Below, in pieces: positions 34,042 to 34,403 of a stretch of 34,403 nucleotides of DNA. This DNA comes from Candidatus Gottesmanbacteria bacterium. GTDB lineage: Bacteria > Patescibacteriota > Microgenomatia > UBA10105 > UBA927. The DNA is taken from positions 1-34,403 of the forward strand of contig JACRMP010000009.1 in NCBI GenBank assembly GCA_016214885.1, in the 5' to 3' direction. The number at the start of each line of letters is the position of its first letter. Within the stretch, counting starts at the first letter, position 1. The notes beneath the pieces are model-generated. The model had not been told where the DNA came from. It did not search any database and was given only the letters and a program-made list of their open reading frames with translations. Position numbers and translations under genes: made by a program.

Positions 34042-34131
34042 TTATTTGAGAGTGTTCATTTTTTAAAAGCTCCGTTCGTTAAGCTCCGCACTTTACGATC
34101 CATTCCCATGGGAGTATTAGTGCGGGTTAAT

Positions 34132-34271
34132 GCCGCGTAGTCGCGGCCAGTCCAGGAGTTAACGCCTAAATTATGGTAAAATAGCGCTATAGCCCCGTTC
34201 GCAGTCCAGGAGTTAATGAGTCAATTCTCATTGACGAATATTACTCCTGGTGAGTGTCGCGTAATCGCGAC
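34132..34271 (+). repeat. hairpin and direct-repeat cluster upstream of tRNA-Glu
   Basis: GCCGCG-TAGT-CGCGGC (34132-34147); CAGTCCAGGAGTTAA twice (34148-34162, 34202-34216); long hairpin CCAGGAGT...ACTCCTGG (34206-34250); GTCGCG-TAAT-CGCGAC (34256-34271). Confidence 0.8.
34191..34201 (+). other. partial copy of the tRNA-Glu 5' end (AGCCCCGTTCG)
   Basis: Identical to 34327-34337 at the intact tRNA; a second piece CTAGCGGCC is at 34273-34281. Confidence 0.65.
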
Positions 34272-34327
34272 GCTAGCGGCCGGAGGTGTACTATAAGAAG
34301 CAAGAGATTCGTTAACAAGTAAATAGA

Positions 34328-34401
34328 GCCCCGTTCGTCTAGCGGCCTAGGACGGTTCCTTCTCAAGGAACAAATCGCCGGTTCGAATCCGGCACGGGGT
34401 A
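34328..34401 (+). tRNA. tRNA-Glu (anticodon CUC)
   Basis: Acceptor GCCCCGT/ACGGGGT, anticodon arm GTTCC-TTCTCAA-GGAAC, T-arm GCCGG-TTCGAAT-CCGGC. Confidence 0.94.
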
Positions 34402-34403
34402 CA

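Follow-up and report, generated by a model that had tools for sequence, protein, structure and literature searches.

Why is an intact tRNA-Glu gene preceded by a broken copy of its own 5′ half? The question arises at the right-hand end of the window, i.e. the whole stretch of 34,403 nucleotides analysed here, for which a sequence-only reading had offered two answers: that an element inserted into or beside the tRNA and the tRNA 5′ half was duplicated, or that tRNA-like pieces are kept as part of a leader.

A split tRNA-Glu copy ahead of the intact gene

Read directly, the intact tRNA-Glu(CTC) is GCCCCGTTCG-T-CTAGCGGCC, and we agree with the earlier reading that its 5′ half recurs upstream, broken by a 71-nt insert (Table 1); the split copy is one T short of the intact gene. 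A further, degenerate tRNA-Glu relative reported at 34068 is likewise present, where it flanks a further copy of the insert on the left. When the flanks of the 49 tRNAs of the genome served as a control, whole neighbouring tRNA genes being set aside, matches that were anchored at the 5′ end of a non-cognate tRNA reached at most 9 nt, and this ceiling together with the exact-join scan described below rules out chance similarity as the source of the split copy.

Table 1. Features at the right-hand end of the window
Feature	Position	Strand	Basis and remarks
Degenerate 5′ piece of tRNA-Glu, AGCTCCGTTCG, before the upstream element copy	34068-34078	+	Direct reading
Second, diverged element copy (H1 + H2)	34081-34149	+	Covariance model R2, 61.5 bits; fold z = −5.1
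Orphan fragment (5′ end) from a third element copy, CAGTCCAGGAGTTAA, 15 nt	34148-34162	+	Direct reading; identical to 34202-34216
Candidate −10 box TAAAAT	34177-34182	+	Direct reading; positioned for the split copy, not the intact tRNA
Left piece of split copy, AGCCCCGTTCG (tRNA-Glu nt 1-10 plus one leader base)	34191-34201	+	
Two-hairpin element, 71 nt	34202-34272	+	Model R2, 89.3 bits; covariation
Hairpin H1	~34206-34250	+	
Hairpin H2	~34255-34272	+	
Right piece of split copy, CTAGCGGCC	34273-34281	+	
Spacer with AU-rich leader GTTAACAAGTAAATAGA at its end	34282-34327	+	Resembles leaders of other filled tRNA-Glu and tRNA-Leu genes
Intact tRNA-Glu(CTC)	34328-34402	+	ARAGORN; Rfam RF00005, 57.6 bits

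The −10 box that had been proposed ahead of the split copy stands in part: TAAAAT is there, and its distance of 9 nt from the split copy equals the spacing at other tRNA promoters of the same genome, but a promoter scan returned no plus-strand match at this position. Because this promoter precedes the split copy, a single transcript probably covers leader, element and tRNA. The strand from 34192 to 34286 folds at −44 kcal/mol (z = −5.5). A like arrangement, at 80% identity, precedes tRNA-Glu(TTC) of the same genome, and the tRNA-Glu 5′ arrangement is also found in the relatives G002 and G004. Both the position of the promoter and the maintenance of the arrangement at two loci of the genome and in these relatives speak for a functional explanation, namely that the split copy and its hairpins make up a structured leader on the 5′ side (or a 3′ tail) regulating tRNA transcription or processing, for instance by an extra tRNA 5′ strand pairing with the acceptor 3′ strand. 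We regard this as unlikely, for reasons that emerge from the other copies of the insert.

The window ends at the end of its contig, and its last 119 nt are also the start of contig C4 of the same genome; judging by this overlap, the locus very probably continues there. Contig C4 carries a terminator and two copies, one degenerate (C4:207-269) and one clear (C4:311-381), the clear one lying where the T-arm and 3′ end of the tRNA are repeated, and the window's own tRNA-Glu probably has a further element copy downstream.

Structure and distribution of the insert

The insert belongs to a small, non-coding, dispersed element of ~58-80 nt that consists of two neighbouring hairpins, H1, with a nearly invariant internal motif (GTTARCGA...GAGTNTTAC), and H2, which is unconstrained in sequence. 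The two-hairpin structure with compensatory changes was obtained from an alignment of ten copies made by sequence alone. The same picture is given by a 29-copy model, in which paired cells amount to 93.5%, both sides change in 19 of 21 pairs and the covariation score is 0.64 (vs 0.19 shuffled and 0.05-0.10 slid), an alignment fitted to the structure and thereby favouring covariation. Covariation of this strength would also suit a functional leader. Rfam scans of the element yielded no RNA family reaching its gathering threshold, and literature searches no description of it.

Second copies of 34202-34272, proposed earlier as a check on the insertion reading, exist in the genome itself and in its relatives. 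The covariance model R2 matched 22 of the 280 genomes of the class sample at E≤1e-3, 16 of them from the window's order and six from two other families, and the first model found a match at E≤0.1 in 19 of the 27 genomes of the order. A viral origin was rejected: the single viral pattern match (L208), on a phage-like contig, is without the element's second half and is a chance match.

Copies interrupt repeats of tRNA ends

The 75 copies examined comprise nearly all R2 matches at E≤1e-3. Forty of them have a tRNA gene within 200 bp, where about two would be expected from tRNA density (binomial P ~1e-43), and the neighbouring tRNAs represent at least nine isotypes (including Glu, Leu, Cys, Pro, Arg, Asn, Val, Gly, Thr and Ala), which rules out a tRNA-Glu-specific element. 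For 23 of the 40 tRNA-linked copies the flanks match their own isotype better than all others, and in 17 cases they join exactly into the neighbouring cognate tRNA, the scan tolerating small boundary shifts and scoring diverged copies roughly. Most split copies adjoin an intact tRNA of the same isotype. The self-copies in tRNA flanks are bounded by mature tRNA ends: copies of the 3′ side stop at the mature 3′ terminus (e.g. 59-75 of 75 or 55-76 of 76), and copies of the 5′ side start with the first mature nucleotide (1-17).

Insertion points recur. The T-arm is entered in both orientations, in sense between nt 57 and 58 of the T-loop (Glu, Cys) and in antisense two to three bases further upstream in the same loop (Pro, Gly), while the D-loop is entered in tRNA-Leu and tRNA-Cys; tRNA-Arg and tRNA-Val have shorter joins at the same insertion places. 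In split tRNA-Glu 5′ ends the element comes after GTTCG, a single base being lost or altered, and falls in an alternative hairpin. That each insertion position can be drawn within a hairpin loop of the empty sequence suggests folded DNA as the target. As the element also occurs in 3′-end copies, on either strand and beside other isotypes, the insertion event is, on sequence grounds, no peculiarity of tRNA-Glu. A regulatory leader does not account for the exact T-loop joins, and it fits poorly with copies that lie antisense, 3′ of tRNAs behind terminators, or far from tRNAs. The earlier notion that tRNA-like pieces are kept as a leader retains some probability, the promoter before the split copy being in its favour.

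Filled and empty sites at tRNA-Leu(CAA)

The earlier reading had also called for empty sites in relatives. None comes from the window's tRNA-Glu locus, whose adjacency to a GNAT gene, followed as a guide to orthology, is not conserved in relatives, but such sites were found at tRNA-Leu(CAA), a locus that we identified across genomes by shared neighbouring sequence. It is empty in G001, G005, G006, G008 and G013, with TATAAT ~8-11 nt before the tRNA. In G003 it is filled by a tandem element array, a 17-nt 5′ piece being followed by 113-bp units; other hairpin inserts fill it in G002 and G004. The promoter stands at normal spacing before the split piece both in the window and in G003, and what precedes the restored tRNA is an AU-rich leader, a layout that fits an insertion leaving the old 5′ end at the promoter. 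Neither a transposition event nor a genome pair differing by one insertion alone was found. Together with the further element copies, the orthologous empty sites support the earlier proposal of an element insertion into or next to the tRNA, accompanied by duplication of its 5′ half, and tRNA genes whose orthologues do without the element also count against a regulatory leader.

Copies away from tRNAs and other inserts

A T-run stands directly before 16 of the 35 copies that are not tRNA-linked, vs 1 of the 40 that are; these T-runs derive mostly from a terminator hairpin, and some of the 16 copies lie upstream of rRNA operons. Several of the 35 are tRNA-derived, at greater distance. The terminator-type copies L104, L105, L117 and L108 are found a few hundred bases away from rRNA genes, either upstream of 16S or downstream of 5S, and in several of them a longer conserved hairpin with GGCTGTAAGCC replaces H2.

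The genome contains other repeated structures at its tRNA genes. About 11 of the 49 have another repeated structured leader upstream, GTCGCAACACC..AGGAAAANCGTTGGG and then a hairpin, e.g. GGGGAAAAACC-TCGG-TTTTGCCCC (loci L302, L304, L305, L307, L312, L321, L324, L327, L328 and L329). At L287 (CAA) and L334 (TAA) of the same genome, an intact tRNA-Leu is separated from a GCCGAGG 5′ piece by an insert of a second family, CYCGCCTCGACTCGCRAATACG..GTCGACGCGAGGCGG, which at L287 is flanked by the 23-nt repeat TTAATAAACAAATATTGCCGAGG. A third insert, CCCTCAAAGCMACTGGGGCAACAGC, is placed between direct repeats of ~30-38 nt made of leader and tRNA 5′ end (L339 in the window's genome, L278 in G002), and at L331, a tRNA-Lys(TTT) locus of the window's genome, a different insert of ~105 nt occupies a displaced T-arm copy downstream of the tRNA. 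Repeated leaders at other tRNAs and other hairpin inserts behind 5′ pieces are what one might also expect if such structures served the tRNA genes as leaders.

Recombinases and candidate enzymes

Integrases acting on tRNA genes offer another source of duplicated tRNA ends, with the hairpins as part of attachment sites. Serine recombinases are encoded in 22 of the 27 genomes of the order, and several loci point in this direction: directly behind tRNA-Asn in G005 lies a 563-aa serine recombinase, with element copies on the far side; the tRNA-Glu of G048 has an island that contains a truncated recombinase and is bounded by copies; and G021 has a 125-aa ORF enclosed by perfect 95-nt repeats of which the element is a part. 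Yet most units are geneless and only 100-250 bp long, the element is also found in D-loops and after terminators, and the crossovers of the tRNA-Asn and tRNA-Glu recombinases, their junctions read by eye, are placed at the tRNA 3′ end and not in the T-loop or the element. A direct repeat of the tRNA end bounds the recombinase island on both sides at tRNA-Asn of G005 and partly in G048, but not the small units, the window included. Copies are present in G001, G003, G006 and G022, which have no such recombinase, so that a large serine recombinase was rejected as the only mover, and XerC/XerD-like recombinases are nearly ubiquitous with or without the element. We therefore consider it rather improbable that the split copies are remnants of integrative elements.

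The island of G005 (L175, contig C9) spans ~10 kb. Besides the serine recombinase, its products include a member of the Beta protein family (PF14350), an Mrr-like nuclease and a protein in which HTH and M78 peptidase domains occur together. The 125-aa ORF of G021 (L176, 6616-7227 of contig C16) is the single ORF between its two repeats and belongs to no known family; a 1.4-kb unit of G005 has two ORFs between two element copies. These two units could be cassettes or plain duplications.

Other enzymes were tried and set aside. Thirty Y1-transposase loci had no element copy nearby and Y1 genes are absent from G000, G003 and G005, a lack of association on which mobilisation by Y1/IS200-RAYT was rejected; IS110 or bridge-RNA mobilisation was rejected with a DEDD transposase in 1 of 27 genomes. 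Of the two tyrosine recombinases of G000, the one scanned best matched XerC/XerD, integron integrase scoring far below the cut-off. A constant short left target such as GTAG was not found among the left ends, which read TTCG, TTCA, AATG, GAAG, CTCG or T-runs.

Discussion

Given the many isotypes, both tRNA ends, both strands, the exact joins, the arrays and the empty orthologous sites, the insert is on balance best read, from sequence comparison, as one copy of a MITE-like dispersed element that enters DNA hairpins. Multiple copies, no ORF and presence or absence at orthologous sites were all found, as for MITE-like elements, and the family looks like a previously undescribed one. The element may move as folded single-stranded DNA and enter hairpin loops, and since it does not encode the mobilising enzyme, its movement is presumably in trans. 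Perhaps only those insertions survive in which the tRNA end is locally duplicated, which would leave an intact tRNA beside a split remnant. The old 5′ end in the window would then have remained at the promoter, and transcription would cross the element before reaching the restored tRNA. Ordinary transposition does not account for a duplicated tRNA end, and the tRNA-Glu 5′ arrangement, common to several species, could alternatively be read as a sign of usefulness.

If the reading of a hairpin-entering element is right, a tiny hairpin element resides preferentially in the tRNA genes of a bacterial order, where it breaks tRNA arms on both sides and both strands while the intact tRNA persists alongside. 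It would provide a clear test case for DNA-hairpin-targeted insertion and account for broken tRNA fragments that are otherwise annotated as pseudogenes or att remnants.

Among known systems, Rfam RF01696 (Chlorobi-1 RNA), listed for Chlorobi only (PMC2864571), similarly has two hairpins beside a terminator, and the terminator-type copy L129 (960-1048) matches it weakly on the opposite strand, terminator side included. The match scores 26.3 bits against a gathering score of 50 and no other scanned copy matches, for which reason identity with this RNA was rejected. The tRNA-based att sites of genomic islands share the repeat of the tRNA 3′ end downstream of the intact tRNA, but here 5′ ends are repeated too, the element breaks the copies and most units are geneless. 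With integron attC sites and cassettes the element has in common a folded hairpin site, tandem arrays and an occasional small ORF between two copies; it differs in its targets, which are tRNA pieces and terminators, and in that the one tyrosine recombinase scanned gave no integron integrase match above the cut-off, and we noticed no attC R′/R″ core by eye in the element alignments. A bolder proposal, which we hold to be quite unlikely, is an undescribed mobile system in which tRNA hairpins serve as folded single-stranded recombination sites, each insertion splitting an arm and rebuilding the tRNA end and some units carrying genes, so that tRNA genes would act like integron attachment sites. 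REP/BIME and MITE-like palindromic repeats, e.g. those linked to RAYT or IS200/IS605 (PMC3733652), are likewise short, non-coding, palindromic, dispersed and extragenic, with no gene of their own and with compensatory stem changes. Unlike REP/BIME, the element has neither a constant flanking tetranucleotide nor a Y1 transposase beside its copies, and it is composed of two different hairpins that lie, exactly joined, inside the hairpin loops of tRNAs.
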